A stretch of 51,647 nucleotides of DNA, taken from assembly GCA_013373085.1 (NCBI GenBank), contig JABXIM010000170.1:1-51647 (forward strand), given 5' to 3'. The stretch is from Oceanospirillaceae bacterium. GTDB lineage: Bacteria > Pseudomonadota > Gammaproteobacteria > Pseudomonadales > Balneatricaceae. Of this stretch, positions 14,515 through 47,951 are shown piece after piece. Made by a program: the position numbers and the translations under genes. Below the pieces are notes generated by a model. The model was not told the DNA's origin, made no database searches, and saw only the letters and a program-made list of their open reading frames with translations. How positions within the stretch are numbered: position 1 is the stretch's first letter; each line of letters begins with the position of its first letter.

Positions 14515-14532
14515 TGTGACCGTGTATAAATA

Positions 14533-14601: not shown

Positions 14602-14606
14602 AACCT

Positions 14607-14920: not shown

Positions 14921-14961
14921 CGGAATAACTGAACGGGCTGGCGAGAAACGGAGGAAGCGTG

Positions 14962-17028: not shown

Positions 17029-17047
17029 CACACAGAAGGATGGGATC

Positions 17048-17803: not shown

Positions 17804-17947
17804 ATGTCAAGATGATAACGCCCGCACTATTTGGAAGGCTCCTGCCTGGTCGGTCGTCTTGATACCTCACGGGATCGGTCGGTTTCGTACCGTCCGGTCC
17901 AGTGGCTTTTCAGGCAGGCCACTTCGCCCCGTTGGCCGACGGCCTAT

Positions 17948-23289: not shown

Positions 23290-23324
23290 CCTGAAGACCC
23301 GACCACTCTTTAGTGGAGGCTGCG

Positions 23325-26383: not shown

Positions 26384-26495
26384 TCTGCGCCCGGTGCTTT
26401 CAATACCCTGTGCCAGGGCGCATCGAGGCACGAAAGCTCCCGTCGAGCGCCGCGCCTCCGGGAATTCCGGCGGCGTTATGCCTGAGGAGGATAGA

Positions 26496-27011
26496 TTGAG
26501 AACAATTCTACTGATCATAAGCGCGCTGGTGCTGGGTGGCTGCCTGGGTATGCCCGATTCGGTGAAGCCGGTATCGGATTTCGAGCTGAATAAGTATTTG
26601 GGTAAATGGTATGAAGTCGCGCGACTGGATCACTCATTCGAACGGGGATTGAGTCAGGTCACTGCCGAGTACAGTCGTAAAAACGATGGCGGTGTGTTGG
26701 TTGTAAATCGGGGTTTTTCTGAAGCTGATAACAGATGGAAAGAGGCTGAAGGTAAAGCGTATTTCGTGAATACAGATTCAGAAGGTTATCTGAAGGTTTC
26801 GTTCTTTGGACCATTCTATGGTTCTTATGTTGTATTTGAACTGGATCATCAAGACTATCAGTACGCGTTTGTATCGGGGCCTGATACGGACTATCTATGG
26901 CTTTTGGCAAGAACGCCATCAGTCGAGCCGGACGTTATGCAGAAATTTATCGAGATGTCTGAGGAACGGGGGTTCGATACAAAAAAATTGATTTACGTTA
27001 AGCAAGAATAA
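26496..27011 (+). CDS. blc: Outer-membrane lipocalin lipoprotein
   Basis: 171 residues from a TTG at 26496; GAGGAGG ends 5 bp before it and gives the N-terminus MRTILLIISALVLGGC, an ideal short lipoprotein signal. An ATG at 26478 would add six residues. Lipocalin signature: VSDFELNKYLGKWYEVARLD (GxW motif), then YSRKNDGGVLVVNRGF, VSFFGPFYGSYVVFELD, YAFVSGPDTDYLWLLARTP. Blc-type proteins bind fatty acids or lysophospholipids at the outer membrane. AT-richer than its neighbours, and directly preceded by GGCGTTATGCC, which looks like an attC core end. Confidence 0.9.
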   Translation: MRTILLIISALVLGGCLGMPDSVKPVSDFELNKYLGKWYEVARLDHSFERGLSQVTAEYSRKNDGGVLVVNRGFSEADNRWKEAEGKAYFVNTDSEGYLKVSFFGPFYGSYVVFELDHQDYQYAFVSGPDTDYLWLLARTPSVEPDVMQKFIEMSEERGFDTKKLIYVKQE

Positions 27012-31030: not shown

Positions 31031-31972
31031 ATGGAAATCAAAAGGAACATCGTCTTCGGTTCGGGGCCGTTGGGGCTCTGGGTCGCGCAAATGCTCGTTG
31101 AGCAATACAAACAGGTCGCGGTCGTTAACCGAAGCGGACAAGTGGCCCATAAGATCTCAGACCAGATAGACATCATTGCCGGGGATGGCAACGATTCTGA
31201 AAAGGTTTATGAGATCTGCAGAGGTGCGGATGCAGTATTTCATTGCGCAATGCCGCCTTATACGCAATGGCCTGAAAAATTCCCGTCACTGACGCGGGGA
31301 ATCCTTGATGGAGTGAAACGGGCCGGCTGTAAATTGATTTATGCCGATAATCTGTATGGGTACGGCGATACCGAGGGCTTGCCAGTAACGGAGTCGCTTC
31401 CCTATAGAGCGACCGGCCGCAAGGGAAAGGTCAGGGCGGAAATGGCAGAGATGCTGTTGAAGGAACCCGGCCTGAAGGTTGTAATTGCAAGGGGATCCGA
31501 TTTCTATGGGCCCATGGTCACGAATTCTGCCTTCGGCGGGATGTTTTTCAAGGCCGCGCTGTCGGGTAAACCGGCCAGCGTGCTGGGGAATGTGGATTTG
31601 CCGCATACCTATACCTACATAAAGGATTTCGCCAGGGCTCTGGTCAGGCTGAGCGACCAGGACGACGCCGTTGGCCAGGTGTGGCATGTCGCCAACCCTC
31701 CGACCGTTACCACGCGGCGACTGGTTTCGCTTGTCGAAGAGCATTTACAGAAACCGGTCAGGATACGGTCTGCAGGAAAGCGCATGGTCTCGTTTTTGGG
31801 GCTTTTCAATCCCATGCTGAAAGAGATGAGCGAGATGATGTATGAGTGGGAGCAGCCATACATCGTTGACCACAGGAAATACGAAGACCGGTTCGGCAAC
31901 GATAGCACCCCCCATGAGATAGCGATCCGGGAAACCCTGGAGTGGTACCGCGCCAGCCCGGATATCACATGA
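31031..31972 (+). CDS. NAD-dependent epimerase/dehydratase family protein (extended SDR-like)
   Basis: 313 residues, ATG with GGGAGG upstream. Rossmann fold start IVFGSGPLGLWVAQMLVEQY (GxGxxG in place of GxxGxxG), HCAMPPYTQWPEKFPSLTRG, and YADNLYGYGDTEG where extended SDRs have YxxxK-like residues. Then VVIARGSDFYGP (the usual RxxDFYGP), HTYTYIKDFARALVRL and GQVWHVANPPTVTTRRLVSL. Atypical catalytic residues make the reaction uncertain. It ends before a terminator, 740 bp upstream of the PKS, so it is probably a separate transcript. Confidence 0.82.
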   Translation: MEIKRNIVFGSGPLGLWVAQMLVEQYKQVAVVNRSGQVAHKISDQIDIIAGDGNDSEKVYEICRGADAVFHCAMPPYTQWPEKFPSLTRGILDGVKRAGCKLIYADNLYGYGDTEGLPVTESLPYRATGRKGKVRAEMAEMLLKEPGLKVVIARGSDFYGPMVTNSAFGGMFFKAALSGKPASVLGNVDLPHTYTYIKDFARALVRLSDQDDAVGQVWHVANPPTVTTRRLVSLVEEHLQKPVRIRSAGKRMVSFLGLFNPMLKEMSEMMYEWEQPYIVDHRKYEDRFGNDSTPHEIAIRETLEWYRASPDIT

Positions 31973-32714: not shown

Positions 32715-35700
32715 ATGGAAAATGCTGAAGGCGCAACCAGCGATTATGAGCAAGTCAAAGTCGCGATTGTTGGCGCTGCGTGTAAATTTCCAGGCGGATC
32801 TAACAATCCAGAGCTGTTCTTTCAGAACCTGCTTTCCGGTAGAAACTATGCCAGCAAGATCCCCATGGATCGTTGGTCTCTGGATAAGTTCAGCAACGCC
32901 AGCGACTCTGCGGGTAAGGCGTATGTCGAGTTCGGGCACTTTCTGCACGACTACGACTACCGCGGCTTCGATGCCGAATTCTTCAACCTTTCACCGCGTG
33001 AAGTCGAATTCCTCGATCCGCAACAGCGGATGCTCCTGGAGCTGAGCTGGGAAGCGCTGGAGTCTGCCGGGCTCGACCCGGAGCAGATGGCCGGCTCCGA
33101 GACCGGGGTTTTTGTCGGCGGTTTCACGGTTGACCATCTGCTCAACCAGTTGGGGGCGGGGGCCAGGGACACCATTGGTTCCCACAGCGCGGCCGGCGCC
33201 ACCCTCACCATGCTGTCCAACCGAATTTCCTACGCGTTTGACTTCCATGGTCCCAGCTTTTCGCTGGATACGGCTTGCTCCTCGTCGCTGGTCGCCTTTG
33301 CCCAGGCGGTCTCGGCGATTGAGTCCAGCCAGTGTGAAACGGCGCTGGTGGGCGGTGTCAATTTCATGCTGCGCCCCGAATACACCATTGCCATGTCGAA
33401 GGGCCGCTTCCTGGCCAAAGATGGCCGCTCCAAGAGTTTCGATTCCCGTGCCGACGGCTACGGCCGCGGTGAAGGCGGCGGCGTGGTGGTACTGAAGAGC
33501 CTGGCCGCCGCAGAGCGTGACGGCGATCCCATCCTGGCGGTGGTCGAGGGCGTCGGCGTCAATCAGGATGGCCGCACCAGCGGCATCACCGTGCCCAACC
33601 CCAGCGCACAACGCGACCTCATGAAAAAGGTGTTGTCGACCAGCGGCTGCGATGCCGGAGGGGTCAATTACGTCGAGGCGCATGGCACCGGCACAGGGGT
33701 GGGCGATCCACTCGAGACAAAAGCGATCGCCGAGGTCTACGGGCGTGACAACGACTGCTGTGTCGGATCGGTCAAGGCGAGCATCGGGCACCTGGAAGCC
33801 GCTGCCGGTATTGCCAGTGTCATCAAGTCCGTAATGATGTTGCGCAACAATATGGTACCGCCGGTCGCGGGCCTGGAAACGGTCAACCCCGCGATACCGG
33901 AGCGGATTTTCCTGCCCCGGTCGCCGGTGCCCCTGGCGGCCGATGGCCAGTCGGCCAGGATCGCCATCAACTCCTTTGGCTACGGTGGCACCAATGCGCA
34001 TGTCATCCTGTCCGGCCGGCCCGGTTTGAACCGTCGCAACGGCGCAGCGGATGGCCTGTCCGGAGGCCAGCGGTTGCTGCCTGTCTCCGCGCGCGATGCC
34101 GACGCCTTGCGCGCGCGGGCCGCGCAGTTCGCGGCTCTGCTGGCCTCGGACGAGGTCGCGCTGGATGACGTCCTCTTCACGGCCTCGAACCGGCGTGCTC
34201 AGCTGTCGCACCGCCTGGCGGTCTGGGGCGATTCCAGGCAGGCGTTGCGGGAGGCGTTGCAGCAGTACCTCGAAGGCGAGTTGCCGCCGGGTGCGTCCCT
34301 GGGCGAGCGCGCCAGCTCCGGCGACAAGCGCATTGCCTTTGTCTACACCGGGATGGGGCCGCAGTGGCATGGCATGGGCCGCGAGCTATACGAACAAAAC
34401 GCGATCTTTCGCGCCACGCTGCAGGAGGCTGACGCGGTATTCAGCCAAATCGCCGGATTTTCCATTCTCGAGGAGATGCTCAAGGACGAGGAACACTCCG
34501 AGATCAAGCGTACCGACTATGCCCAGCCCGGCAATCTGATGGTCCAGCTGGGGTTGACCGCGGCACTGGCGGCTGAAGGGGTAACGCCCGATGCGGTTGT
34601 CGGTCACTCGGTTGGCGAGGTGGCTTCTGCCTGGGCCTCGGGCATGCTGACCCTGGAGGAGACCCTGCTGGTGAGCTGCCAGCGCAGCCGTATCCAGGCG
34701 ACCACGGCCGGGCAGGGCAAAATGCTGGCGCTGGGCGTCGGTGAGGCCACCGCGGCCGAGCTGATCGCACCTTACGCAGGCAAGGTCTCGCTGGCTGCAA
34801 TCAACTCGCCGGCCAGCGTGACCGTGGCCGGCGCTGCCGATTGTCTGGACGCAATCCTCGCATCCGCAATCGAGCAAAAGCTTTTTGCCCGTATGCTCGA
34901 TGTAGCCGTGCCTTATCACAGCCCGGTAATGGAGCAGCTCAAGCCCGAGCTGCGCAGGCAATTGTCGGTGCTGGACCCGGCCGAGGCCAGGACCGCGCTC
35001 TATTCCACGGTGACCGGCGGTCGCGTCGGGCACGCGGCCGACGCCCGCCGCTTCGATGCCAAATACTGGTGTGACAACGTACGCGAGCCGGTCCATTTCG
35101 CCGCGGCGATTCGCAGCATGCTGGCCGACGGCTACACGACGTTTGTCGAGATCGGGCCGCATCCGGTGCTGCGACGCGCAATCGAAGAGGTGTTCCAGGA
35201 GCAGGGCGCCGATGCCCGAGAGGTCGCCACGCTTTGGATGAACAAGCCTGAGGGCCTATCGGTGCACCAGGCGGTGGCCGATATCTACACGGCGGGCGGC
35301 GGCATCGACTGGCAGAGACGCGAAGGTGCCGGTCGCCTGATCGACCTGCCCGCGTATCCGTGGCAGCGCAAGCCGCTGTGGCGCGAGTCGCTGTGGCAGG
35401 CCAATGACCGCACGCATGAGCAACTCGATCCGCTGCACGGCCACGACGGCGCCGACCTCAACCTGAGCCGGCTCAACTACCTCGATGACCACAAGGTGGA
35501 CGGTGTCGCCATTATGCCGGCTGCAGGCTTCCTGGAGGCGTTGTGCGAGTCGGCGCGGGAACGGTGGCCGCAACTGGACGCACAGAGTGGCTGGAGCCTG
35601 CGCAATATCGAGATTCTCGAGGCGCTGATTCTCGACCGGGAGCGCGCGCTTCACCTCAGTGTCGCTTTCGACGACTTCACCAACGAGGCGAAACTGCTGG

Positions 35701-38700
35701 CCAGTGACAGCCTGTCCGAGCGCGAAGCGGTGGTTCATGCCCGGGCGCAGCTGTTCCCGCTGACGGTCAAGGCGGTTCCGCAGCTGGGCGAGCAGGCATT
35801 CGAGACCTTCGACGGGGAAGCGGTCGATAGTGCCCAGCTGTACCGGGAACTGGGCGAGCTGTCGCTGCAATATGGTCCCGCGTTCCAGTCGATCGTCGGC
35901 CTCAAGCGCAATCGTACGCGGGGCGAAGCGCTGGTGCTGCTGGAACGTCCCGAGATGGCGGGCGAGGACAGCTCGATGTATGTCCTGCATCCGTCGCTGC
36001 TGGATGGCTGCTTCCAGTCGGCGATCGCGCTGCTGGAGCCTGCCGACGGCGCGTACCTACCGGTGTCGATAGACGCGCTGCAGGTGTTCACGGCTGCCCC
36101 GGAAAGGATGCTCTGCAAGGTCAAAATTGTGGAAAAAAGCGCGGCGCAGATCCAGGTCGATTTTGCGCTGGCCGATGAGAGCGGAGCGGTGTTTGCCGTG
36201 GTGAAACGACTCACCTGTGCCGCGCTGAGGGGCGCTTCCGGGCCCGACCGTTTCCCGAAGGGCGACTATCAGCGGCGCTGGAACGAGCAGCCGGCACTCG
36301 AGACTGTCGATCCGAATGTGACGGCCCTGGCGGTCATAGCCAGCCCGGTGGACACGCTGGCCGATGCCCTGACGGAGGTCAGCGCCTCGGTCGGTATCCC
36401 ATGCCAGCGCTACTCCATGGAGGAACTGCATGATCTGTCCATACTGGCGTCCGCCTCGCACATAGCCTACATCGCCTGGTCCGGCCTGGATCCGGAGTGG
36501 GATCCGACCGGTCAGGGCAACGCCGCTGAACTGCTGGCGCTGGTGCAGGGTCTTAACAGCGCCGGCTACAACGGCAAGCTGCGCGTGGTTACCCGAGCCT
36601 CGTCGGCAGTGGTCGAGGGCGATCAGGTCATACCTGCGCAAACCGCCATTGCCGGCTTCGCCCGCGTCGCCCGCAACGAGCTGGAGGCGCAGGATATCGC
36701 CATTGTCGATATCAATCGGCTTTCAACGGACGAAACCTTCGGTCAGGCGCAGAGCCTGTTCGTCGAGATCATCAACGCGGCCACGATCGATGAGATTGCC
36801 ATCCGCGACAGCCGCCGCTATGCGGTGGAGCTGACCCGCTCCGCTGCGCTGGAGTCCGCCAGCGCGGTGCAGGTCGAGGACGTCACGGCGACCCCGGTCA
36901 GTCTGGTGATCGCGGGTAATGAGATCAGTGCCCGCGTACTATCGGCCATCCCGCGCCTGCGGGACAGCGAGTATCGCCTCCGCATCGACCGGCTGGCCCG
37001 CCAGCAGGGCAACGAGGCGATGATGGCGGTGTGCGCCACCGTGCTGGAGTGCGGCGCGGGTACGACCCGATTCAGCGTGGGTGAGCGTGTCGCCGGACTG
37101 TTGCCGTATCGGCTCGACTCGCAGCAAGTGGTATCCGAGCCGGAGGCGCTGCTGGTGTCCGCCGCCGCGGCCGCTCCGGACGTCCTGCAGGCAAGTCACG
37201 CCATCGTCGAGGTGCAGGCGGTGCTGCTCGAGCACGCCTGCGACGGTGTTGCCGGCGCCGAGGTGCTGGTGGATGACAGCGCCCTGGGCGGCGCCCTCGG
37301 TCGCCGCTTCGAGCGGGCCGGCGCCCGCGTGACCCGCTTCGCTCAGTTCGATGCCGCCGCCCAGCAGCGCTTCGATCTGATCGCGGGCCCGCTGGCCCAG
37401 TGGAGCCGTACCCTTGGTTTCAGCACCCTGGAGGAGGGCGGGCAACTGGTCGACCTCTGCTCGAAGCGACTGTCGTTCGCCCTGCCGTCCCACTGTGGCC
37501 GCCTGGTCAGGGTGGTATCCGACCTGGCGGGCCTGCAGAAGTCGCAGTCCTATGCTGCGGCGCTGGACAGCGTCATCCGCGAAGCGGCCGGGGGCCGGCT
37601 GCCGAAGGCCGCCGAGTGGACCCTGCAGGCGCTGCTCGATCAGGGCCAAGGCGCGTCGGCCCCGGGCGAGTGGCAGGAGCTCCTGCTATCCGCCGGGCAG
37701 GCGCCTTTCGCGGCCATGGGCCCGGATGTGCCGGCGTTTTCAGCCACTGGCAGCTACCTGGTGACCGGCGGCTTTGGCGGGCTGGGCGCCGAAGTGGCGC
37801 GCTGGCTGGCCGAGCATGGCGCGGGACATATCGCGCTGGTCAGCCGCCGCGGGGGGGCTACGCCCGGTGCCGATCTGCTGATTCGCGACCTGGAACAGGC
37901 CGGCGCCAGCGTCAGCACCCACGCGGTCGATATGGCTCAGGCCGGCGCGGTGGCGGAGCTTGTGCAGTCCCTGTGCCGTGACGCCGCGCCGCTGAAGGGC
38001 ATTTTCCACGCCGCCGGGGTGCTGGACGATCAGCTGCTGGCGGATATGCCGCCAGAGGCGCTGGCGCGGGTGATGGCGGTGAAAGCGGGCGGTGCGCGAA
38101 TCCTGCACGAGACGCTGGAATCGCTGCCGGTCGAGCTGGAACATTTCGTGCTGTTCTCGTCCATCGCCAACCTGGTGGGCAACAGCCGCCAGGGCAACTA
38201 CTGCGCCGCGAACGGTTACCTGGATGGCCTGGCGCACCTGCGACGGGCCCGGGGTTTGCCGGCGCTGAGCGTGAACTTTGGCGCCATTGCCGCCGTTGGC
38301 ATGCTCGAAGAGGACGCCCGCATCGGCCAGCACCTCACGCAGATCGGCCTGGCGCCGTTGCATGTGGGCACCGCCCTGCGGGGCCTGGGACGGGCGCTGG
38401 TGCAGGGGCAGACGCAGATTGCCATCGCCGAGCAGGTCGCCTGGGAACGCTGGGCCGCATACGAAACCGTGGGTGGCAACTCGCCGGCATTCGCTAAGCT
38501 GGTGGCTGAGAGCCGCGAAGCCGCGAATGGCGACGCTTCGCTGGTTGCGCAGTTGCACCAGGCGGTGAAATCCAGCCCCGAGGCGGAGGGCAAGGCCGTG
38601 CTGCAGAACCTGATCGCCGATGTGATCGCCATGGTTCTGAAAACCTCGGCCGAGCGGCTCAAACCCGACCTCGCGTTCGATGCGTTCGGCGTCGACTCGC

Positions 38701-38831
38701 TGATGTCCACCGAGATCCAGATCAATCTCGATCAGGCCATCGGCATCAGCTACTCGGTTGTCGAGCTGCTGGGTCACGCGACGATCAACGGTCTGGTCGA
38801 CAAGGCCTTTGCCGAGATCACCGAAGCCTAG
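32715..38831 (+). CDS. Type I iterative-type polyketide synthase, KS-AT-DH-(degenerate ER)-KR-ACP
   Basis: 2038 residues, ATG with AAAGGAG upstream. Domains: KS about 16-432 (Cys188 in DTACSSSL, HGTGTG, SIGHLEAAAG); AT about 539-828 (GHSVGE, Ser632; VPYHSP in the specificity loop, probably malonyl); DH about 905-1175 (HKVDGVAIMP, His926; HPSLLDGCFQ, Asp1097); a region about 1440-1560 shaped like an ER (CGAGTTRFSVGERVAG) without the NADPH-binding GGVGxA; KR from 1679 (TGGFGGLG, Tyr1829 in NYCAANGYLD); ACP about 1955-2038 (GVDSLM, Ser1995). No methyltransferase and no thioesterase. One module and no docking ends suggest iterative use, giving an unsaturated chain. It heads the cluster; the oxoamine synthase gene follows. 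Confidence 0.93.
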   Translation: MENAEGATSDYEQVKVAIVGAACKFPGGSNNPELFFQNLLSGRNYASKIPMDRWSLDKFSNASDSAGKAYVEFGHFLHDYDYRGFDAEFFNLSPREVEFLDPQQRMLLELSWEALESAGLDPEQMAGSETGVFVGGFTVDHLLNQLGAGARDTIGSHSAAGATLTMLSNRISYAFDFHGPSFSLDTACSSSLVAFAQAVSAIESSQCETALVGGVNFMLRPEYTIAMSKGRFLAKDGRSKSFDSRADGYGRGEGGGVVVLKSLAAAERDGDPILAVVEGVGVNQDGRTSGITVPNPSAQRDLMKKVLSTSGCDAGGVNYVEAHGTGTGVGDPLETKAIAEVYGRDNDCCVGSVKASIGHLEAAAGIASVIKSVMMLRNNMVPPVAGLETVNPAIPERIFLPRSPVPLAADGQSARIAINSFGYGGTNAHVILSGRPGLNRRNGAADGLSGGQRLLPVSARDADALRARAAQFAALLASDEVALDDVLFTASNRRAQLSHRLAVWGDSRQALREALQQYLEGELPPGASLGERASSGDKRIAFVYTGMGPQWHGMGRELYEQNAIFRATLQEADAVFSQIAGFSILEEMLKDEEHSEIKRTDYAQPGNLMVQLGLTAALAAEGVTPDAVVGHSVGEVASAWASGMLTLEETLLVSCQRSRIQATTAGQGKMLALGVGEATAAELIAPYAGKVSLAAINSPASVTVAGAADCLDAILASAIEQKLFARMLDVAVPYHSPVMEQLKPELRRQLSVLDPAEARTALYSTVTGGRVGHAADARRFDAKYWCDNVREPVHFAAAIRSMLADGYTTFVEIGPHPVLRRAIEEVFQEQGADAREVATLWMNKPEGLSVHQAVADIYTAGGGIDWQRREGAGRLIDLPAYPWQRKPLWRESLWQANDRTHEQLDPLHGHDGADLNLSRLNYLDDHKVDGVAIMPAAGFLEALCESARERWPQLDAQSGWSLRNIEILEALILDRERALHLSVAFDDFTNEAKLLASDSLSEREAVVHARAQLFPLTVKAVPQLGEQAFETFDGEAVDSAQLYRELGELSLQYGPAFQSIVGLKRNRTRGEALVLLERPEMAGEDSSMYVLHPSLLDGCFQSAIALLEPADGAYLPVSIDALQVFTAAPERMLCKVKIVEKSAAQIQVDFALADESGAVFAVVKRLTCAALRGASGPDRFPKGDYQRRWNEQPALETVDPNVTALAVIASPVDTLADALTEVSASVGIPCQRYSMEELHDLSILASASHIAYIAWSGLDPEWDPTGQGNAAELLALVQGLNSAGYNGKLRVVTRASSAVVEGDQVIPAQTAIAGFARVARNELEAQDIAIVDINRLSTDETFGQAQSLFVEIINAATIDEIAIRDSRRYAVELTRSAALESASAVQVEDVTATPVSLVIAGNEISARVLSAIPRLRDSEYRLRIDRLARQQGNEAMMAVCATVLECGAGTTRFSVGERVAGLLPYRLDSQQVVSEPEALLVSAAAAAPDVLQASHAIVEVQAVLLEHACDGVAGAEVLVDDSALGGALGRRFERAGARVTRFAQFDAAAQQRFDLIAGPLAQWSRTLGFSTLEEGGQLVDLCSKRLSFALPSHCGRLVRVVSDLAGLQKSQSYAAALDSVIREAAGGRLPKAAEWTLQALLDQGQGASAPGEWQELLLSAGQAPFAAMGPDVPAFSATGSYLVTGGFGGLGAEVARWLAEHGAGHIALVSRRGGATPGADLLIRDLEQAGASVSTHAVDMAQAGAVAELVQSLCRDAAPLKGIFHAAGVLDDQLLADMPPEALARVMAVKAGGARILHETLESLPVELEHFVLFSSIANLVGNSRQGNYCAANGYLDGLAHLRRARGLPALSVNFGAIAAVGMLEEDARIGQHLTQIGLAPLHVGTALRGLGRALVQGQTQIAIAEQVAWERWAAYETVGGNSPAFAKLVAESREAANGDASLVAQLHQAVKSSPEAEGKAVLQNLIADVIAMVLKTSAERLKPDLAFDAFGVDSLMSTEIQINLDQAIGISYSVVELLGHATINGLVDKAFAEITEA

Positions 38832-39007
38832 GCTGGGCGCAGCGCGCGCAGATGCATTTCAAATCAAACGTATCCGCTGTTTGAACGGTCCCGGTCAATG
38901 CCCTGGCGCGTCGGCCGGGGCCTTGCGGGGCTACCGCCGGGCATTCCGAAAACCGGGGCCCGGGGCAGGCAGCGAGATGATTCACCTTTTTACTGGACGT
39001 TATTCCC

Positions 39008-40303
39008 GTGACCACACAAAAGTCATCCATGGACAGTTTGCTCAACCAGATCCGGGCAAAAATACAGACTGCTGAGGCCGCGCCGGCACAGGAGCACGCG
39101 CCGCTGCAGGTCCAGGATTATCCCGAGCATGCGATGCTGCAGCGCATCCACTCGCTTTACAGCAACGGCTCGACGCTGCGCAACCCCTATTTTCTGCCGC
39201 GCAGTGGCACCGTCTCCAGTGTGCTGGAAATCGAACAGGAGGAGTATGTCACCTTCTCCAATTACAACTACCTGGGCCTTTCCAACGATGAGCGCGTGAA
39301 AGAGGCCGCGTGCGCCGCTATTCACCGCTACGGTACCCATGCCGGCGCTGCACGAATGGTGGGGGGAGAGTGCGAGCTACACCGCGAGCTGGAGCGTGCA
39401 TTGGCCGATTTCACCGGCTTTGAAGCCGCCACGGTCGGCGTGGGCGGTTACAGCACCAATGTCTCCGCCGTGGGATACCTGCTCGATAAGCGTGACCTTA
39501 TCCTGCACGACGAGTACATGCACAACAGTGGCGTGATGGGCGCCGTGATGTCCGGGGCCCGGCGCATCGCCTTCCCGCACAATGACATGGCGGCGCTCAA
39601 ACGCCTGCTCAGCGACAATCGCAAGCAGCACCGCAAGACAGTCATTCTGGTCGAAGGCGCCTACAGCATGGATGGCGATCTGGTCGATCTGCCCAGCCTG
39701 ATCGAGCTGAAAAAAGAGTTCGGCGCCTGGTTGATGATTGACGAAGCGCACTCCTGCGGCACCGTTGGCGCAACCGGTCGCGGCGTTTGCGAGCATTTCG
39801 GCGTGCCCACCTCCGAGGTTGAGCTTATCGTCGGCACGCTGTCGAAAAGTTTTGCCAGCTGCGGGGGCTTTCTGGCCGGTTCCCGGGAATTGATCGAACT
39901 GCTGCATCACTTCTGCCCGGGCCTGCTGCTCTACAGCACCGGGATAAGTCCGGCGAACACGGCGGCGGCGCTGGCCGCTGTGGAGATTGCCAAAGCCGAG
40001 CCCGAGCGCGTGCAGCGCCTGCAAAACAATGCACGCACCTTCAAGCGGCTGGCCGAGGCCGAAGGCCTGGATTGCCGCACCAGCGTGCCCGGCGTGCCCA
40101 TCGTGCCGCTGATGATCGACGACGACAAGGCGCTGCATTTGATGTCCTCGCTGCTCGAGCAGCGCTTTATCTCCCATGCCGTTATGCACCCGGTTGTGCC
40201 GCGTGAAGCGGCCCGCCTGCGCTGTTTTATCAGTGCCGATCACACGGAAGAGATGATGGCCCGAATGTTACGGCTCATAGCCACTTCAGATAAAACCAAT
40301 TAA
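39008..40303 (+). CDS. PLP-dependent alpha-oxoamine synthase (PKS off-loading candidate)
   Basis: 431 residues from the GTG at 39008; MDSLLNQ at 39029 is an alternative start and neither has a strong ribosome site. Related to BioF, Kbl, CqsA and serine palmitoyltransferase: TFSNYNYLGLSNDERVKEAA, GTHAGAARMVGGECELHREL, ILVEGAYSMDGDLVDLP, MIDEAHSCGTVGATGRG, and GTLSKSFASCGGF with the PLP lysine 280. The family joins an acyl thioester to an amino acid with loss of CO2, giving an alpha-amino ketone. Placed 176 bp after a PKS that lacks a thioesterase, it likely releases the ACP-bound chain, as in prodiginine or fumonisin-type pathways. The amino acid used is not predictable here. Confidence 0.88.
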   Translation: MTTQKSSMDSLLNQIRAKIQTAEAAPAQEHAPLQVQDYPEHAMLQRIHSLYSNGSTLRNPYFLPRSGTVSSVLEIEQEEYVTFSNYNYLGLSNDERVKEAACAAIHRYGTHAGAARMVGGECELHRELERALADFTGFEAATVGVGGYSTNVSAVGYLLDKRDLILHDEYMHNSGVMGAVMSGARRIAFPHNDMAALKRLLSDNRKQHRKTVILVEGAYSMDGDLVDLPSLIELKKEFGAWLMIDEAHSCGTVGATGRGVCEHFGVPTSEVELIVGTLSKSFASCGGFLAGSRELIELLHHFCPGLLLYSTGISPANTAAALAAVEIAKAEPERVQRLQNNARTFKRLAEAEGLDCRTSVPGVPIVPLMIDDDKALHLMSSLLEQRFISHAVMHPVVPREAARLRCFISADHTEEMMARMLRLIATSDKTN

Positions 40304-40313
40304 GGATATCGAC

Positions 40314-41123
40314 ATGTTAAAAGCCCAATACCTTCCACTGACGGTTGCCTCGTTGATCGCGGCCAATATCGCTGTCGCCAATACGCAGGCTATCGATTTC
40401 GATGAGCGCGGCCGCGAAATTGCCCATAGCGTCGATCGCAACGATGCGGGTTTCGAAGACTATGTCGTGGTCGGGAAAATGACTGTCAACCGCCCCGGTG
40501 GCGTGAGCGCTTCGAGGGTGTTCGAGATGAACACCCTGGAGCTGCGCGACGATGGCGACAAGCGCCTCGTGGTATTTTCACAGCCGCGTGATCTGGCCGG
40601 GTTCGTATCGCTGACCTACACCCACCCCAATGCGCCCGACGACCAGTGGATCTTTCTGCCGGCGACCAATCGCTCCAAGCGGCTGGCTTCCCGGGATAAA
40701 ACCGGTTCCTTCGCCGGGTCGGAGTTCTCCTACGAGGATATCGCCACCTGGGAGCTGTCCAACTATGACTACAAGTTCATTCAGGACGAGCCCTGTGGCG
40801 AGCCGGCAACCACCTGCCATACGATCGCCAATATTCCCAAATACGAACATTCGGGCTATCAGAAGCTTGTCGAGACCATCGATCCGCGCATCTGGCAGCC
40901 GGTCCGCATCGTCTATTTCGACCGCCAGGGTCGCGAGCTGAAAAAGCTCGAGTTCTTCGATTACAAAGAGTACGAGGACAAGCACTGGCGTCCGGATCGC
41001 ATGGTGATGACCAACCTGCGCGACGGTTCGTACTCGGAAATCGTTTGGGACGATTACCGCTTCAAAACGGGCCTGAGCGAATCTGACCTGACCGACACCC
41101 GCCTGGAGTACTGGTCTCGATGA
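40314..41123 (+). CDS. LolA-like outer membrane lipoprotein-sorting family protein (PF17131-like)
   Basis: 269 residues, ATG with AAGGA. Signal peptide: TVASLIAANIAVA then NTQA, so periplasmic. The mature protein is beta-rich: FEDYVVVGKMTVNRPGG, RLVVFSQPRDLAGFVSLTYT, DDQWIFLPATNRSKRLASRD, KTGSFAGSEFSYEDIATWEL and VYFDRQGRELKKLEFFDY. This is the family that accompanies RND/MMPL exporters and resembles LolA, which carries lipids across the periplasm. Here it would shuttle the cluster's hydrophobic product. It starts 10 bp after the oxoamine synthase, and its stop overlaps the next start (ATGA). Confidence 0.85.
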   Translation: MLKAQYLPLTVASLIAANIAVANTQAIDFDERGREIAHSVDRNDAGFEDYVVVGKMTVNRPGGVSASRVFEMNTLELRDDGDKRLVVFSQPRDLAGFVSLTYTHPNAPDDQWIFLPATNRSKRLASRDKTGSFAGSEFSYEDIATWELSNYDYKFIQDEPCGEPATTCHTIANIPKYEHSGYQKLVETIDPRIWQPVRIVYFDRQGRELKKLEFFDYKEYEDKHWRPDRMVMTNLRDGSYSEIVWDDYRFKTGLSESDLTDTRLEYWSR

Positions 41124-42313
41124 GATTGCGCGTTGCCGCGACGGTGCTGCAGGGTGCAGCACTGTTGCTCTCAGTGGATGCGTGGGCGGGCCCGCCGCGC
41201 GGGAATCTGGCGCTGGATGTCGCCGCCTACCCGGACGAGCCGCTGTTTGAGGATCAGAATGACAGCGTTCTGCAATCCAGCCTTTCGGCCAGTATCGACT
41301 GGACAGCCCGCCTGTCCAGGGACGTCAGGTTCGATCTCAGTGCCCGTGGCCGGGTCAGTGCAGACACGGAAGACAGGCTGTTCGGCGATATCAAGGAGGG
41401 CCTGCTGCGCTTCAGAGTGGCGGATACCGACTTCAAGGCCGGTGTGGTGCAAGAGAACTGGAGTGTACTCGAGGCCTGGAATCCGGTGGACATCGTCAAC
41501 CAGCGCGACCTGGTGGAAGACTACCAGGGCGATGCCAAGCTGGGTCAGCCGGGCGTGACCGCCACGACCGTGTACAACGACTGGGTGCTCTCCGCTTTCG
41601 TGCTGCCCTACAGCCGCGAGAGGCGTATAGCCGAAGGCGAAGACCGCCTGCGGAACCTGCCCGCACCGGTTCAGGACGCAGTGTTCGAGGATGGCCAGGG
41701 GCGCAGCAGCCTCGCGCTGAGGGGGCAGTATCGGCTGGGCGACTTTGACCTGGCGCTGTCGTACTTCAGGGGGCATGCACGGGAGCCCATCTACCGGCCG
41801 ATTATTGACCGGGAGGGACTCTCTGGTTTCGACGAAGTGTACGAGAGCATCTCTCAAACAGGCGTCGAGCTGCTGTACGTGATCGGTGACAGTGTTCTCA
41901 AGGGCGAAGTGATTTATCGCAGTGCCGACTCGGATGAATTCGCCGCCGCCGGCATTGGTTCTGAAACGACCTTCAATCAGCTTACCAACGGATTCGATTC
42001 GATCACGCTGTATCTCGAGGGGTATTACGACGGGCGTAACGATCGGGCCGCGTTAACGCCGTTTCAAAGGGATGTCTATGTCGGTGCTCGGTATAACCGC
42101 AACGATGTCTATGACTCCCTGGTCGACGTTCGCGTTACCCACGACCTGGAGTTTCATTCCAACCTGGTCGATATTCGCGCGTCGCGGCGGTTTGGGAAAC
42201 AGCAGACCCTCGAGCTGCAGCTGCTGGCGCCTTTATCGGTCGATAACGACAGGGCACTGCAGGGTTATGAAAACGACCAGCGCGCGAAGCTCAGTTGGGC
42301 CTGGTACTTTTGA
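41120..42313 (+). CDS. Outer-membrane beta-barrel protein of the PKS cluster
   Basis: 397 residues, translationally coupled to the preceding gene by ATGA. Signal peptide: VLQGAALLLSVDAWA then GPPR. The mature protein has alternating beta strands (SSLSASIDWTARLSRDVRFD, LRGQYRLGDFDLALSYFRG) and ends in SWAWYF, with the terminal aromatic residue typical of outer-membrane barrels inserted by the Bam complex. Such proteins recur between LolA-like and RND genes in lipid-export loci. It probably receives or displays the product at the outer membrane. No close family name recognised. Confidence 0.75.
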   Translation: MRLRVAATVLQGAALLLSVDAWAGPPRGNLALDVAAYPDEPLFEDQNDSVLQSSLSASIDWTARLSRDVRFDLSARGRVSADTEDRLFGDIKEGLLRFRVADTDFKAGVVQENWSVLEAWNPVDIVNQRDLVEDYQGDAKLGQPGVTATTVYNDWVLSAFVLPYSRERRIAEGEDRLRNLPAPVQDAVFEDGQGRSSLALRGQYRLGDFDLALSYFRGHAREPIYRPIIDREGLSGFDEVYESISQTGVELLYVIGDSVLKGEVIYRSADSDEFAAAGIGSETTFNQLTNGFDSITLYLEGYYDGRNDRAALTPFQRDVYVGARYNRNDVYDSLVDVRVTHDLEFHSNLVDIRASRRFGKQQTLELQLLAPLSVDNDRALQGYENDQRAKLSWAWYF

Positions 42314-42360
42314 GCCGGTATTCCGGCAGGCGTAAATGGAAACGTCAGGGAGATTTTGCG

Positions 42361-44748
42361 ATGGGTAACTTACGCACAGGCCGACGCGAGCAGGGCGGCA
42401 CAGGTGAGGTTGCAGGCTGGAAACGCTTTGTCGTGCGGTACCTCACTTTTGTCACCGATAATCCTGTCAAGGTATTGATCGGATCGGTCATATTGGCGGC
42501 CCTGCTCATGGCTGGCATGTCGCAGCTGACATTCCGCAGCGACAACCGGGTGTTCTTCGCCGATGACAATCCCGAGTTACAGCAGCTGGAACGGTTTGAG
42601 CAGCTGTACGGTCGGGACGATAATTTGATTTACGTGGTAAAAGCCCTAAAGGGGGATCTGTTTACCCCCGAACGGCTGCACGCGATCAATGAAATAACCG
42701 ACGCCGCCTGGGCGCTGCCGGATGTTAAGCGGGTCGATTCGGTGACCAACTTTCAGCGGGTTCGCGCGGTTGGCGATGACATCGAGATCGACCATCTGGC
42801 GCGCTCCGGCGATCCCCTGACGACGGCGCAGGCGCGTCAGCTGAAAGCGGACGCAGCGCTGGAACCGCTGTTAACCGACCGGCTGCTGTCTAAAGATGGC
42901 GCCCTGGGTCTGGTGGTGGTGCAATTCAACTTCCAGGCCGAAACCGCGTCCAGCCAATCTGAGGCGGCCATGGCTGCCGGCCAGGAAATCCTGGATCGGT
43001 TTGCGCAGACGTACCCGGACCTGGAGCTCGGTCTGTCGGGATCGGTGGCGCTTGATCACGCCTTTGTCGAGGCGAGCACCTACGATAGCTCGGTGTTGCT
43101 GCCCATCATGCTGGTCATACTGCTGCTGATCATCGTGGTTGCGCTGCGCTCGGTCGTCGGGGCGGTCGCGACCTTCCTGGTGATCCTGCTGAGCACGCTG
43201 TGCGCACTCGGTCTCGCCGCCATGCTGGGTATTCCGCTGTCCTCGCCGAGCGTCATCGCACCCAATATCATTCTCACCCTGGCGACCTGCGACTGTATCC
43301 ATATCTGTGCCGGTATGATGCGCCACCGTCGCAGTGGCCGCAGCCGGCCGGATGCCGTCAAAGTGGCCCTGCTCGAATGCTGGTGGCCGGTCACGCTGAC
43401 CACCCTGACCACGGCGATCGGTTTCCTGACGCTCTCGTTCAGCGCCGTGCCGCCTTTCGCACACCTCGGTATCATCGTTGCGATCGGCTCGCTGATGGCC
43501 TGGTTCCTGTCCGTGAGTTTCTTCCCTGCGCTGCTCTGCGTGCTGCCCTGGCGCGGTAAAACTGCGTCCTTGCCGGCAGAGCGCTTCAGTGGCGCCGTGG
43601 CCCGCATTGTGCTGGCGAACCCGCGTCGCTTGCTGGTCGGCATCAGCGCAGTGGCTGTGGTGCTCTGTTCGCTGGCATTCACGAACGTGCTGGACGACCG
43701 CTACGTGCGTTACTTCGATCAGAGTTTCAGCTTTCGGGAAGCTACCGATCGCATGAACGAAGACCTGGGCGGGTTTTATATTCTGGAGTTTTCGCTCGAT
43801 TCCCGGGAGGAGGGCGGCATCGCGACACCGCAGTACCTGCAGGAGGTCGATGCCTTTGCCGACTGGCTGCGGCAACAGCCAGGTGTGACGCATGTGCACG
43901 GGTTGCCCGATATCATGAAAACCGTCAACCGCGCGATGCAGGGGGGCGACGCCAGTGCCTACGTGCTGCCGGGCAACCGGGATCTCGCGGCGCAGTATCT
44001 GGCCCTGTACGAGATGTCGCTGCCGTTCGGTACCGATCTGCGCAACCAGCTCACGGCCGACAAGCGCTACAGCCGGCTTTCGGTGAGCCTCAACGATATC
44101 TCCACCCGGGATATGACCGATCTGCAGGCGCGCGCCGAAGCCTGGGCGGCCGACAATACCAGGGTGATCGCCGCATCGGCCAAGGCTACCGGGACATCGC
44201 TGCTCTTCGCTCATATCGGCAACCGCAATATTCAGGAAATGCTGCAGGGCATTGCGATGGGCGTACTGGTGGTCTGGGTCATTTTCCTGGTCGCCTTCCG
44301 CTCGCTGGTATTGAGTCTGGTCGGCACCTTTGCCAACTTCATTCCCTGCCTGGCAACGCTCGGCATCTGGGCGCTGATTAACGGCGAGGTGGGCATGGCG
44401 GTGGCGACGGTGGCCTCCGTGACCTTTGGCGTGGTGGTGGATGCGACCATCCACATGCTCTCGAGTTTCGTGCGCATTCAGCGGGAAGAGGGGGCCGGCA
44501 GCGCAGCGGCGGTGCGCGCCACCTTCGAGACGGTGGGGCCTGGCCTGGTGACGATGACGCTGTCGCTGGCGGCTGGCTTTCTGTGCCTGGCGTTCTCCGG
44601 TTTCCAGATCAACGCCTGGATGGGCACGATGGCGGCGCTGACGATTTTCGTCGCGCTGCTGTTCGATCTCTTCTTCATGCCCGCCATTCTGTTGCTGTTG
44701 AAGTCGCGCGAGCAATGTCGCGGCAGGCTGGCGATGGAGGCACAGTGA
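42361..44748 (+). CDS. RND/MMPL-superfamily exporter
   Basis: 795 residues from the ATG at 42361 with AGGGAG upstream; the frame is open to 42295 but that start lies in the gap without a ribosome site. Twelve membrane helices in two halves: helix 1 (PVKVLIGSVILAALLMAGM), a large periplasmic loop (FRSDNRVFFADDNPELQQLE), helices 2-6 (SSVLLPIMLVILLLIIVVAL; TTLTTAIGFLTLSFSAVPPF), then a second half with a similar loop and GVVVDATIHMLSSFVRIQRE. Resembles MMPL and hopanoid-transporter (HpnN-like) exporters, driven by the proton gradient. With the LolA-like and barrel proteins it forms a likely lipid-export path. Confidence 0.9.
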   Translation: MGNLRTGRREQGGTGEVAGWKRFVVRYLTFVTDNPVKVLIGSVILAALLMAGMSQLTFRSDNRVFFADDNPELQQLERFEQLYGRDDNLIYVVKALKGDLFTPERLHAINEITDAAWALPDVKRVDSVTNFQRVRAVGDDIEIDHLARSGDPLTTAQARQLKADAALEPLLTDRLLSKDGALGLVVVQFNFQAETASSQSEAAMAAGQEILDRFAQTYPDLELGLSGSVALDHAFVEASTYDSSVLLPIMLVILLLIIVVALRSVVGAVATFLVILLSTLCALGLAAMLGIPLSSPSVIAPNIILTLATCDCIHICAGMMRHRRSGRSRPDAVKVALLECWWPVTLTTLTTAIGFLTLSFSAVPPFAHLGIIVAIGSLMAWFLSVSFFPALLCVLPWRGKTASLPAERFSGAVARIVLANPRRLLVGISAVAVVLCSLAFTNVLDDRYVRYFDQSFSFREATDRMNEDLGGFYILEFSLDSREEGGIATPQYLQEVDAFADWLRQQPGVTHVHGLPDIMKTVNRAMQGGDASAYVLPGNRDLAAQYLALYEMSLPFGTDLRNQLTADKRYSRLSVSLNDISTRDMTDLQARAEAWAADNTRVIAASAKATGTSLLFAHIGNRNIQEMLQGIAMGVLVVWVIFLVAFRSLVLSLVGTFANFIPCLATLGIWALINGEVGMAVATVASVTFGVVVDATIHMLSSFVRIQREEGAGSAAAVRATFETVGPGLVTMTLSLAAGFLCLAFSGFQINAWMGTMAALTIFVALLFDLFFMPAILLLLKSREQCRGRLAMEAQ

Positions 44749-44749
44749 C

Positions 44750-45514
44750 ATGAGCGGCGCTTCCCTATTCGTCACGCCGGAGGCCCGACCGGCCGCGACG
44801 GCCCGGTTGATTTGCTTTCCCTTCGCCGGCGGGGATATCAACGCCTATCTGCCCTGGCTGTCCCGGCTCGACCCGCAGCTGGAACTGGTCATCGTTCAGC
44901 TTCCGGGACGCGGTCAGCGCGCCAGGGAGCGGCCCTTTGCCCGGATGGACCTGCTGGTGGACGAGCTGTTTGGCAATATGCTCACCCGGCTCGACAAGCC
45001 GTTCGCTTTTTTCGGTCACAGCATGGGGGGCAAAATCGCCTACGAGCTGGCGAAACGGCTGCAGCGTGAGCAGCTGCCCCTGCCGGAGTTATTTGTCGCC
45101 TCCGGCAGTGGCTCGCCCTGTCTGCCGCGACGCAGTGCACCCGTCCACCGGCTTCCGGACGCCCTGTTCAAGGAAAAGATCCGCGAGCTGTCCGGGGTGC
45201 CCCGGCAGGTGCTCGAAAACGAAGAGCTGATGGCCTTTATTCTGCCGATCCTGAGGGCGGACTTTAAACTGGTCGAAAGCTATGTCGGCAAATACGAGTC
45301 GCCACTGTCGTCGCGGTTGCTGATTCTGGGTGGAGAAGAGGATAGCCTGGTCGCCCGGGACGACCTGCTGGCCTGGCGCGACCTCTTTATTGAGGTGGAC
45401 GCGGTCCGCCTCTACGAGGGCGGGCATTTCTTTATCAACCACCACAGTCACGACATTATCGACATGATCAATGCCCGTCTGGATAAAGGCATGTCGTTGA
45501 ATCGGGCCTCATAA
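44750..45514 (+). CDS. Type II thioesterase
   Basis: 254 residues, starting one base after the exporter stop. Alpha/beta hydrolase of the PKS/NRPS editing type: RLICFPFAGGDINAYLPWLS, VIVQLPGRGQRARERPF, AFFGHSMGGKIAYELAKRL with nucleophile Ser91, LLILGGEEDSLVARDD with the acid, and RLYEGGHFFINHH with the catalytic His. Its usual job is to remove wrong or stalled acyl groups from the ACP. As the PKS has no built-in thioesterase, it might also release product, but the oxoamine synthase is the better candidate. Last gene of the cluster. Confidence 0.92.
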   Translation: MSGASLFVTPEARPAATARLICFPFAGGDINAYLPWLSRLDPQLELVIVQLPGRGQRARERPFARMDLLVDELFGNMLTRLDKPFAFFGHSMGGKIAYELAKRLQREQLPLPELFVASGSGSPCLPRRSAPVHRLPDALFKEKIRELSGVPRQVLENEELMAFILPILRADFKLVESYVGKYESPLSSRLLILGGEEDSLVARDDLLAWRDLFIEVDAVRLYEGGHFFINHHSHDIIDMINARLDKGMSLNRAS

Positions 45515-45758: not shown

Positions 45759-47951
45759 ATGGAAATCAAAGTCAACTTTCTCGACAATCTCAGACTTGAA
45801 GCCAAGTTTGACGATTTCACCGTCATCACCGACCAGCCCATCCGTTACAAGGGCGATGGTTCGGCGCCCAGCCCGTTCGACTACTTCCTGGCGTCGTCGG
45901 CGCTCTGCGCGGCTTATTTCGTCCGGGTGTACTGCCTGTCGCGCAACATCCCCACCGACAACATCCGCCTGTCACAGAACAACATCGTCGATCCGGAAGA
46001 CCGCTACAACCAGATCTTCAAGATCCAGGTCGAGTTGCCCGAGGACATCTCCGAGAAGGACCGTGCCGGCATCCTGCGCTCGATCGATCGCTGCACCGTG
46101 AAGAAGGTGGTGCAGACCGGACCCGTGTTCCAGATCGACGCGGTCGAGCACCTGGACCAGGACGCGGAAGCCCTGCTGATGGAAATGCCCGCCGGCGAAT
46201 CCAGCACCTACATCCTCGGCAAGGACCTGCCGCTGGAGCAGACCATCGCCAACATGACCGGCATCCTGGCGGAGCTCGGCATGAAGATCGAGATCGGCTC
46301 GTGGCGCAATATCGTGCCCCACGTCTGGTCGCTGCATATCCGCGATGCCGCCTCGCCGATGTGTTTCACCAACGGCAAGGGCGCCAGCAAGGAAAGCGCG
46401 CTCTGCTCGGCGCTGGGCGAATTCATCGAGCGCCTGAGCTGCAACTTCTTCTACAACGACCAGTACTTCGGCGAGGCGATCGCCAACAGCGCCTTCGTCC
46501 ACTACCCGGACGAGCGCTGGTTCGAGCTGCGCCAGGATGACGGGCTGCCCGAGGGGATTCTCGACGACTACTGCCTGGGAATCTACAACCCGGACGGCGA
46601 ACTGTGCGGCTCGAACCTGGTCGACACCAACTCGGGCAACTTCGAGCGCGGCATCTGCTCGCTGCCGTTCGTGCGTCACTCCGACGGCGAGGTGGTCTAC
46701 TTCCCCTCCAACCTGATCGAGAACCTGTTCCTCAGCAACGGCATGAGCGCCGGCAACACCCTGTTCGAGGCGCAGGTGCAGTGCCTGTCGGAGATCTTCG
46801 AGCGGGCGGTGAAGCGGGAGGTGATCGAAGGTGAAATCGCGCTGCCGGATGTACCCGCCGAGGTGATCGCTCGCTATCCCGGCGTCCTCGCGGGCATCAA
46901 GGCGCTGGAAGCCCAGGGTTTTCCGGTGCTGGTCAAGGATGCCTCGCTCGGCGGCCGCTTCCCGGTGGCCTGCGTTACGCTGATGAACCCGCGAACCGGC
47001 GGCGTGTTCGCCTCCTTTGGCGCCCATCCGAGCTTCGAGGTCGCGCTGGAGCGCAGTCTCACCGAGCTGCTGCAGGGCCGCAGCTTCGAGGGCCTGAACG
47101 ATGTCCCGCCGCCGACTTTCAGCAGCCTGGCCGTGACTGAGCCGAACAACTTCGTCGAGCACTTCATCGACTCCACCGGCGTTGTGTCCTGGCGTTTCTT
47201 CAGCGCCCGCTCGGACCACGAGTTCTGCGCCTGGGATTTCTCGGGCAGCAACGAGGAAGAGGCCGCGGGCCTGTTCGGCATCCTCGAAGAGATGGGCAAG
47301 GAAGTGTACATGGCCGTCTACGAGGACCTGGGGGCGCCGGCCTGTCGCATCCTGGTGCCCGGTTACTCGGAAGTGTACCCGGTCGAGGACCTGATCTGGG
47401 ACAACACCAACATGGCGCTGGACTACCGCGAGGAAATCCTCAATATCCACTCGCTGAGCGACGACCAGCTGGCCGAGCTTGTGGAACGCCTTGAGGAGAG
47501 CCAGCTCGACAACTACAAGGACATCATCACCCTGATCGGTATCGAATTCGACGAGAACACCGTCTGGGGACAACTGACGATCCTGGAGCTGAAGCTGCTG
47601 ATCTACCTGGCGCTGCAGCGTCACGAGGAAGCGCTGGAGCTGGTGGAGAGCTTCCTGCAGTACAACGACAACACCGTCGAGCGCGGGCTCTTCTACCGCG
47701 CGGTGAACGCGGTGCTGGAAATCGCCCTCGACGACGAGCTGGAACTGGACGACTACATCGTCAACCTCCGCCGCATGTTCGGCGACGACACCATGGAAGC
47801 GGTGGTCGGCTCGGTGGACGGCAGCGTGCGCTTCCACGGCCTGACGCCGACCAGCATGCGACTGGACGGTCTGGACAAGCACCTGCGCCTGGTCGAAAGC
47901 TACAAGAAGCTGCATGCGGCGCGCGCCGCGCGGGCGGGGATCGAACTGTAA
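45759..47951 (+). CDS. ycaO: OsmC-YcaO fusion, ribosomal S12 methylthiotransferase accessory protein
   Basis: 730 residues. N-terminal OsmC-like domain about 1-140 (ITDQPIRYKGDGSAPSPFDY, SSALCAAYFVRVYCLSRNIP), then the YcaO ATP-binding domain with NGKGASKESALCSALGEFIE and FEAQVQCLSEIFERAVKREV, which supply the Mg-ATP glutamates and basic residues. A C-terminal TPR-like helical part runs from about 560 on. E. coli YcaO is linked to the beta-methylthiolation of S12 by RimO; other YcaO proteins activate amide bonds of peptides. No precursor peptide is visible here, so the housekeeping role is favoured. It belongs to the core genome flank and has no coupling to the PKS. Confidence 0.92.
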   Translation: MEIKVNFLDNLRLEAKFDDFTVITDQPIRYKGDGSAPSPFDYFLASSALCAAYFVRVYCLSRNIPTDNIRLSQNNIVDPEDRYNQIFKIQVELPEDISEKDRAGILRSIDRCTVKKVVQTGPVFQIDAVEHLDQDAEALLMEMPAGESSTYILGKDLPLEQTIANMTGILAELGMKIEIGSWRNIVPHVWSLHIRDAASPMCFTNGKGASKESALCSALGEFIERLSCNFFYNDQYFGEAIANSAFVHYPDERWFELRQDDGLPEGILDDYCLGIYNPDGELCGSNLVDTNSGNFERGICSLPFVRHSDGEVVYFPSNLIENLFLSNGMSAGNTLFEAQVQCLSEIFERAVKREVIEGEIALPDVPAEVIARYPGVLAGIKALEAQGFPVLVKDASLGGRFPVACVTLMNPRTGGVFASFGAHPSFEVALERSLTELLQGRSFEGLNDVPPPTFSSLAVTEPNNFVEHFIDSTGVVSWRFFSARSDHEFCAWDFSGSNEEEAAGLFGILEEMGKEVYMAVYEDLGAPACRILVPGYSEVYPVEDLIWDNTNMALDYREEILNIHSLSDDQLAELVERLEESQLDNYKDIITLIGIEFDENTVWGQLTILELKLLIYLALQRHEEALELVESFLQYNDNTVERGLFYRAVNAVLEIALDDELELDDYIVNLRRMFGDDTMEAVVGSVDGSVRFHGLTPTSMRLDGLDKHLRLVESYKKLHAARAARAGIEL

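Follow-up and report, generated by a model that had tools for sequence, protein, structure and literature searches.

What does a six-gene cluster make in which a single-module type I polyketide synthase (PKS) and an alpha-oxoamine synthase (AOS) are followed by a LolA-like protein, a putative outer-membrane barrel, an RND/MMPL transporter and a stand-alone thioesterase, and where might the product go? The cluster lies on contig JABXIM010000170.1 of an Oceanospirillaceae bacterium (assembly GCA_013373085.1). The window analyzed here is this entire contig, whose 51,647 bp belong to a genome of 5.78 Mb. With a probability of roughly 0.6 we read it as a dedicated lipid biosynthesis-and-export operon, predicted to make an unsaturated alpha-amino ketone. 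PKS-made bacterial sphingolipids were reported in 2025, and the portions of that report used here do not name a transporter (PMC12134224). The present cluster couples a synthase related to the SgaAB pair of that pathway to a protein set that could span the inner membrane, the periplasm and the outer membrane; hence, lipid export could be tested with one operon.

The order PKS-AOS-LolA-barrel-RND recurs in eight other loci, five of which also carry the thioesterase, so that the first five genes are present in 9/9 loci and the thioesterase in 6/9. These loci come from the two Marinobacterium species M. nitratireducens and M. sedimentorum (L084, L085), a Pseudomonadales metagenome-assembled genome (L086, on the same contig as L174/G612), two more genomes of its family f111 (L172, L173), Pseudomonas sp. 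Irchel 3E20 (L087), and, from the same Pseudomonas family, two further genera, one being g41 (L197), in which primers for the MYb115 genes considered below match, and the other represented by L194. The window AOS is closest to those of the two Marinobacterium species (95% identity), and against each of them all six genes show ratios of nonsynonymous to synonymous substitution (dN/dS, NG86) of 0.04-0.19; the genes are intact and under purifying selection. The recurrent order and these low ratios together indicate that the cluster is more than a chance assembly. In an AOS tree of 71 rows the nine loci form one clade (support 100/100); they do so again in a tree of 29 ketosynthase-acyltransferase (KS-AT) rows (100/99) and in an RND tree that includes seven paralogs (100/100). 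The original prediction had treated the genes as one biosynthetic unit, and the synteny of nine loci and the matching PKS, AOS and RND clades bear this out. It is very improbable that the PKS is instead an isolated piece of a modular assembly line, a notion favored by its best PDB sequence matches (modular DEBS constructs at 705 bits, as against 656 bits for mycocerosic acid synthase): the gene set is constant and no second PKS gene occurs in the stretches compared from the nine loci, which span about 20 kb apiece and in some cases reach no more than 2 kb upstream; this is to be read alongside a KS-AT tree that contains no modular reference as an outgroup.

The SgaAB pair of Pseudomonas fluorescens MYb115, a PKS and an AOS that make sphinganines with C24-C28 bases (PMC12134224), is the closest known pathway. 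The printed sgaA forward primer has zero mismatches in L199, L205 and L207, and this match anchors a comparison group of 30 Sga-type loci. A lone type I PKS adjoining an AOS that releases the chain is common to both systems, but the Sga PKS has an enoylreductase (ER) domain, whereas that of the window retains a relic. The window PKS is ordered KS-AT-DH-(psiKR)-(relic ER)-KR-ACP, with DH, KR and ACP denoting dehydratase, ketoreductase and acyl carrier protein; a Pfam scan found no second carrier and no loading or thioesterase (TE) domain in it. An alignment of 29 PKSs contains all the active-site motifs listed in Table 1, as originally described, and the AT motif reads VPYHS here as against YAFHS in 17 of 18 aligned Sga-type PKSs. 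The DH-KR linker begins with the psiKR, a pseudo-ketoreductase (hhalign 97.0), and continues with a shortened ER-like stretch that can be matched with the ER of Sga-type PKSs over 141 columns (hhalign probability 88.6, E 2.6e-6). This stretch has no alcohol dehydrogenase (ADH) Pfam match and has lost the cofactor loop GGVG, whereas both Sga-type PKSs scanned (L207 and L059) have ADH_N and ADH_zinc_N domains. A query taken from the L036 PKS (residues 1401-2050, spanning its ER) matched 30/30 Sga-type loci, each to its end, but 0/9 loci of the present cluster and 0/2 of its sister group (L213, L215); the Sga-type group was defined after these matches had been seen, making the 30/30 partly a matter of construction, yet the trees support the group. 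The relic has a dN/dS of 0.26-0.34, compared with 0.05-0.17 in the KS, AT, DH, KR and ACP domains, and evolves like a linker. Because the ER is a relic, the unsaturated chain of the original prediction is likely.

The two lineages also differ in phylogeny and in neighboring genes. L213 and L215 form the sister group (100/96) of the nine-row AOS clade, and the 25 SgaB-type rows stand apart (97/98, with three ungrouped rows inside), the window AOS falling outside their clade; the KS-AT tree recovers the same three groups. In the Sga pathway an SDR-family protein, SgaC, is proposed as the reductase, and phosphoglycerol forms of the product were detected (PMC12134224). An SgaC-like SDR is found in 23/30 Sga-type loci (at least 38% identity) and a lipoteichoic acid (LTA)-synthase-like gene in 24/30, some of the stretches being incomplete in either count, as against 0/9 for each among the present loci, where weak SDR matches of 24-31% identity lie near L086, L173 and L194. 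The RND/LolA/barrel set, on the other hand, occurs in 9/9 loci here and 0/30 there. A LolA profile that includes the sequences of this clade found no match in the 30 Sga-type loci, and among 70 further AOS loci longer than 9 kb it matched only L050, L051 and L174, all copies of clade loci. Membership of the Sga family was considered and rejected on the ER, the clades, the SDR and the LTA-synthase-like gene; judged from its sequences, the cluster is a separate lineage of PKS-AOS systems whose core pair is not new in kind. In five of five searched genomes outside Marinobacterium (that of L087 was not among them) this AOS is present and an SgaB-type AOS absent, which shows the cluster to be independent of Sga. 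The genome that carries the window also has an Sga-type cluster (L059 on contig C72, AOS at 9134-10492 and PKS at 10489-18177) with an ER, an SDR and an LTA-synthase-like gene, and a single cell may accordingly make two PKS-AOS lipids.

The identity of the amino acid condensed with the chain may be a second point on which the two lineages differ. All nine clade rows keep the five AOS residues compared, namely Lys280, His172, Asp245, His248 and Arg405 (numbered from the GTG at 39008); we take the first four to have their usual catalytic roles, and Arg405 aligns with Arg366 of ThAOS. The PDB neighbors of the enzyme are ThAOS and serine palmitoyltransferase (SPT), and the NCBIfam bioF, SPT and related models match the protein, all below their cut-offs. 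Release of the chain by an AOS, as first proposed, is supported. Ala115 aligns with Val79 of ThAOS, the sole residue there that differs between the structures 7poa and 8s1y. Val79 helps determine which amino acid enters, and E. coli 8-amino-7-oxononanoate synthase (AONS) and S. paucimobilis SPT have a serine at this position (PMC11906848). In the 71-row alignment this gate residue is Ala in 9/9 rows of the present clade but Ser in 25/25 SgaB-type rows; it is Gly in L213 and L215, Ser in L216 and L037, Ser in 20/21 further rows (the exception is another record of the L215 gene), and Ser, Val and Phe in six, four and one of 11 outgroup rows, respectively. The ThAOS V79A mutant accepts a wider range of amino acids but works best with serine (PMC11906848). 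The alanine gate suggests a non-serine amino acid or a loose choice; serine may still be the substrate, but its use cannot simply be carried over from SgaB. The product had been called sphingoid-base-like, a wording that implies serine and does not sit well with a gate residue differing from that of all SgaB-type rows. A comparable case with other amino acids is that of the vitroprocines of Vibrio, for which a PLP-dependent release of the chain with Tyr or Phe is likewise proposed, and to which the consulted part of the report assigns no gene cluster (PMC4523872). The loss of the ER and the altered gate, both common to the nine loci, amount to a natural experiment on these two enzyme features.

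A plainer pathway would retain the Sga chemistry: the AOS would use serine to give a long-chain 3-keto-sphinganine, saturated by a trans-acting ER or mildly unsaturated and reduced by a general SDR, with the exporter as the only novelty. The AOS shares 38-46% identity with the Sga-type enzymes and retains both the HNS motif and the arginine. Furthermore, SgaB, which was shown to act with acyl-CoA and serine, has a near-exclusive preference for serine when compared with alanine and glycine (PMC12134224); L-Ser also gives ThAOS V79A its highest activity (PMC11906848); and an SgaC-like SDR is available on contig C72 of the same genome. Nevertheless, we consider this pathway somewhat unlikely in view of the separate AOS and PKS clades, the ER relic, the alanine in place of serine at the gate, and the genomes that possess this AOS and lack the SgaB type.

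The genes downstream of the AOS suggest what happens to such a product. The N-terminus of the LolA-like protein resembles a signal peptide when read by eye, and the protein also scores 25.9 bits with PF07044, the DUF1329/LolA-like family (cut-off 23.1); the transporter scores 185.7 bits with the HAE3 model TIGR00921 (cut-off 351.9). The barrel assignment is a guess from its position and from homology to the third member of each of two further LolA-like sets (L195/L196; hhalign 99.9, E 1e-37). Two known systems resemble this arrangement. Aryl-polyene clusters likewise combine a LolA-like protein, an RND transporter and a thioesterase (ApeL/ApeM/ApeK) with a polyene synthase, and their product resides in the outer membrane (PMC8253772). 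However, they use separate enzymes and an aryl starter, and the gene table of that report has no AOS; conversely, separate ketosynthases, dehydratases, a reductase and a ligase with an aryl starter are absent from the six genes of the window. AmeABCD of Castellaniella joins an HAE3-type RND protein to a DUF1329 LolA-like protein and a DUF1302 outer-membrane protein (PMC6394551), and thus shares with the window an RND pump with a LolA-like and a (here putative) outer-membrane partner; unlike the present set, it is not part of a biosynthetic cluster, and by Pfam the six genes of the window include neither AmeC nor DUF1302, nor any fourth gene for transport. Deletion of AmeABCD reduces monoterpene tolerance (PMC6394551), and in Thalassolituus a protein that has both MMPL and LolA-like domains is induced on a C28 alkane, as is a porin (PMC6304351), from which it could be argued that the exporter serves general efflux of, or self-protection against, hydrophobic molecules and secretes the product to the medium. 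We find this somewhat unlikely: the set accompanies the PKS and AOS in nine loci, and its RND proteins form a clade apart from the seven paralogs, even though secretion and membrane placement look alike in sequence. By analogy with these systems, the export proposed earlier is plausible, with the outer membrane as its predicted destination.

Taken as a lipid operon, the cluster could work as follows. The KS and AT would extend the chain iteratively in the lone module while the KR and DH reduce and dehydrate it, and the relic ER would leave double bonds in place, giving an unsaturated, perhaps polyene, acyl-ACP. RerAB of Rhodococcus, an iterative PKS without an ER, forms conjugated polyenes of up to C22; it shares iteration (presumed here) and the missing ER, but the available description gives it another domain order, tandem ACPs, a thioesterase and no AOS (PMC11563203). 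The AOS would then take the chain from the ACP and join it to an amino acid by decarboxylative condensation, yielding a long alpha-amino ketone; where present, the thioesterase may clear stalled chains. By analogy, the RND pump would lift the lipid out of the inner membrane, the LolA-like protein would ferry it through the periplasm, and the barrel would either insert it into the outer membrane or let it pass to the other side. It is conceivable that the AOS product is a short amino ketone, cyclizing to a pyrrole, a dihydropyrazine or a signal molecule, inasmuch as an NCBIfam model for alpha-hydroxyketone quorum-sensing synthases matches (161.8 bits, cut-off 428) and chain length is not readable from sequence. 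A LolA-like carrier and an MMPL pump better suit a hydrophobic lipid, however, and the characterized PKS-AOS pair yields C24-C28 bases (PMC12134224), making a short product distinctly unlikely. Going beyond the unsaturated alpha-amino ketone itself, we tentatively entertain the possibility of a new class of bacterial outer-membrane lipids, polyketide polyene chains capped as non-serine alpha-amino ketones or alcohols. A single six-gene operon would produce them and bring them to the cell surface, in Marinobacterium alongside the Sga pathway, and they would form a shield comparable to that of aryl polyenes but based on the chemistry of sphingolipids.

Several observations weigh against the reading of an operon for an exported, unsaturated amino ketone. 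Its chemistry and transport are inferred and its product is predicted from sequence; iterative action is deduced from the presence of a lone module, and a trans-acting ER encoded elsewhere could saturate the chain. The alanine gate also occurs in L039, outside the clade, and the serine activity of V79A has been mentioned. The cluster has no 3-keto reductase, and the best match in its genome to an SDR that lies upstream of L086 is only 33% identical. L087, L194 and L197 lack the thioesterase, the putative barrel has no Pfam match and ends in an aromatic residue in 6/9 loci, and the KS-AT and RND trees carry long-branch warnings. Finally, L043-L049 and L195 have an RND and a LolA-like protein, mostly with a barrel homologue, and no PKS in the stretches compared; with such PKS-free sets in related genomes, the link between exporter and product rests on synteny.

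The sister group offers a further comparison. L213 (genus g41) and L215 (family f38) have an ER-less PKS and an AOS with the glycine gate. In L215 these are followed by an MDR-type reductase, which is a possible trans-acting ER, an ABC ATPase, an FtsX permease, a PF17131 LolA-like protein and a protein without a family; L213 likewise has a LolA-like protein of PF17131, and its neighbors are similar by eye. The proteins of L213 and L215 in the place of the barrel have no detectable relation to that of the window (hhalign 0.1). Set beside the nine loci, this group shows that ER-less PKS-AOS pairs with a neighboring LolA-like carrier occur with two kinds of pump, and its ABC-type pump suggests that both have been joined to the same chemistry. 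With the L215 LolA-like protein as query, the sister group was found in 1/299 genomes of its family. The upstream SDR of L086 (2229-3062) is on the same strand as the cluster there and 50% identical to the SDR upstream of L213; downstream of L086 (16598-21272) lie an FAD-linked oxidase and then genes that, by sequence reading, resemble glycerol-3-phosphate dehydrogenase and glycerol kinase.

Among the Sga-type loci, those on a Pseudomonas plasmid (L036) and two Burkholderiaceae plasmids (L035, L038) have the PKS and AOS, an SDR and an LTA-synthase-like protein near capsule genes. The neighbors are capsule proteins, kdsA, kdsB and KpsF in L036, polysaccharide export genes and wecB/wecC in L035 and one capsule gene in L038. 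The lipid anchor of a capsule could be a phosphoglycerol sphinganine. In another AOS locus, L217 on plasmid pWSGX3 of Burkholderia glumae, the neighbors of the AOS are a carbamoyltransferase, a PKS and a gene with the annotation bioB.

The gene set is uncommon. It was found in 3/57 relatives, in 3/15 genomes of the family of G512, and in 1/25 and 1/398 genomes of two genera in the Pseudomonas family; among 398 genomes drawn from the phylum only its own genome was positive. The cluster LolA occurs at an identity of at least 78% in 4/390 genomes of the order, and in 8/390 at the E-value limit. In a pattern-based scan of named genomes, 4 of 80 listed loci were at least 64% identical, the next being 49% over partial length. 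Among the titles and abstracts of the matches listed for open-licence articles in PMC, none describes a PKS with an AOS, a LolA-like protein and an RND transporter, and the Marinobacterium genus paper, in the part consulted, includes T1PKS among its antiSMASH classes and describes none (PMC10868613). The original statement that no described cluster has exactly this set thus stands for the six genes together and falls for the PKS-AOS pair, published as SgaAB (PMC12134224); what is new is the exact gene set, the exporter and perhaps a different amino acid.

All six predicted plus-strand genes were recovered where they had been placed, and Pfam supports the families of all but the putative barrel (Table 1). 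Of the tight spacing claimed for the last four genes, the 10 bp, the 4-bp overlap and the 1 bp hold, and the 47 bp holds with the RND start at ATG 42361, the likely start, at which relatives begin to align. The gap between PKS and AOS is 176 bp, measured to the GTG at 39008. At 0.60-0.66, the GC content of the cluster resembles the 0.61-0.62 of the window's first 8 kb, giving no clear sign of recent import. Scans for promoters (6 predicted, 2.9 expected, sd 1.7) and terminators (10 predicted, 10.6 expected) were judged uninformative.

Table 1. Coordinates of the cluster and of its genes, domains and gate codon in the window
Feature	Position	Strand	Basis and remarks
Six-gene cluster	32715-45514	+	Contig C185
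Single-module type I PKS, 2038 aa	32715..38831	+	Pfam, motifs, hhalign of DH-KR linker
PKS ketosynthase domain, aa 12-435	32748..34019	+	PF00109/PF02801; TACSSS; dN/dS 0.05-0.08
PKS acyltransferase domain, aa 539-845	34329..35249	+	PF00698; GHSVGE among motifs read
PKS dehydratase domain, aa 905-1185	35427..36269	+	PF21089, PF14765; HxxxGxxxxP and DGCFQ
PKS relic enoylreductase, aa 1415-1672	36957..37730	+	hhalign; no ADH Pfam match; dN/dS
PKS ketoreductase domain, aa 1676-1925	37740..38489	+	PF08659; GGFGGLG and YCAAN
PKS acyl carrier domain, aa 1960-2030, DSL site	38592..38804	+	PF00550
Alpha-oxoamine synthase (AOS)	39008..40303	+	PF00155 (Aminotran_1_2); GTG start, ATG 39029 alternative; Lys280
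AOS amino-acid gate codon, Ala115	39350..39352	+	Alignment with ThAOS Val79
LolA-like protein	40314..41123	+	PF17131, 157.8 bits; PDB 3bk5, 7.6e-55
Putative outer-membrane barrel	41120..42313	+	No Pfam family; hhalign homology to L195/L196 proteins
RND/MMPL transporter	42361..44748	+	PF03176; ORF opens at TTG 42295, likely start ATG 42361
Stand-alone (type II) thioesterase	44750..45514	+	PF00975

An epimerase gene upstream of the cluster (31031-31972) was considered as a further member and rejected, as just two of the eight other loci, L084 and L085, have a homologue placed as a neighbor. Downstream, at 45759-47951, lies an ordinary YcaO gene encoding an OsmC-YcaO protein, the S12 methylthiotransferase accessory factor (TIGR03549, 1489.7 bits). 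Elsewhere the window encodes two sulfotransferase-family proteins (10941-11624 and 23313-24233; PF17784, PF00685) and a lipocalin-domain protein (26169-27011; PF08212).

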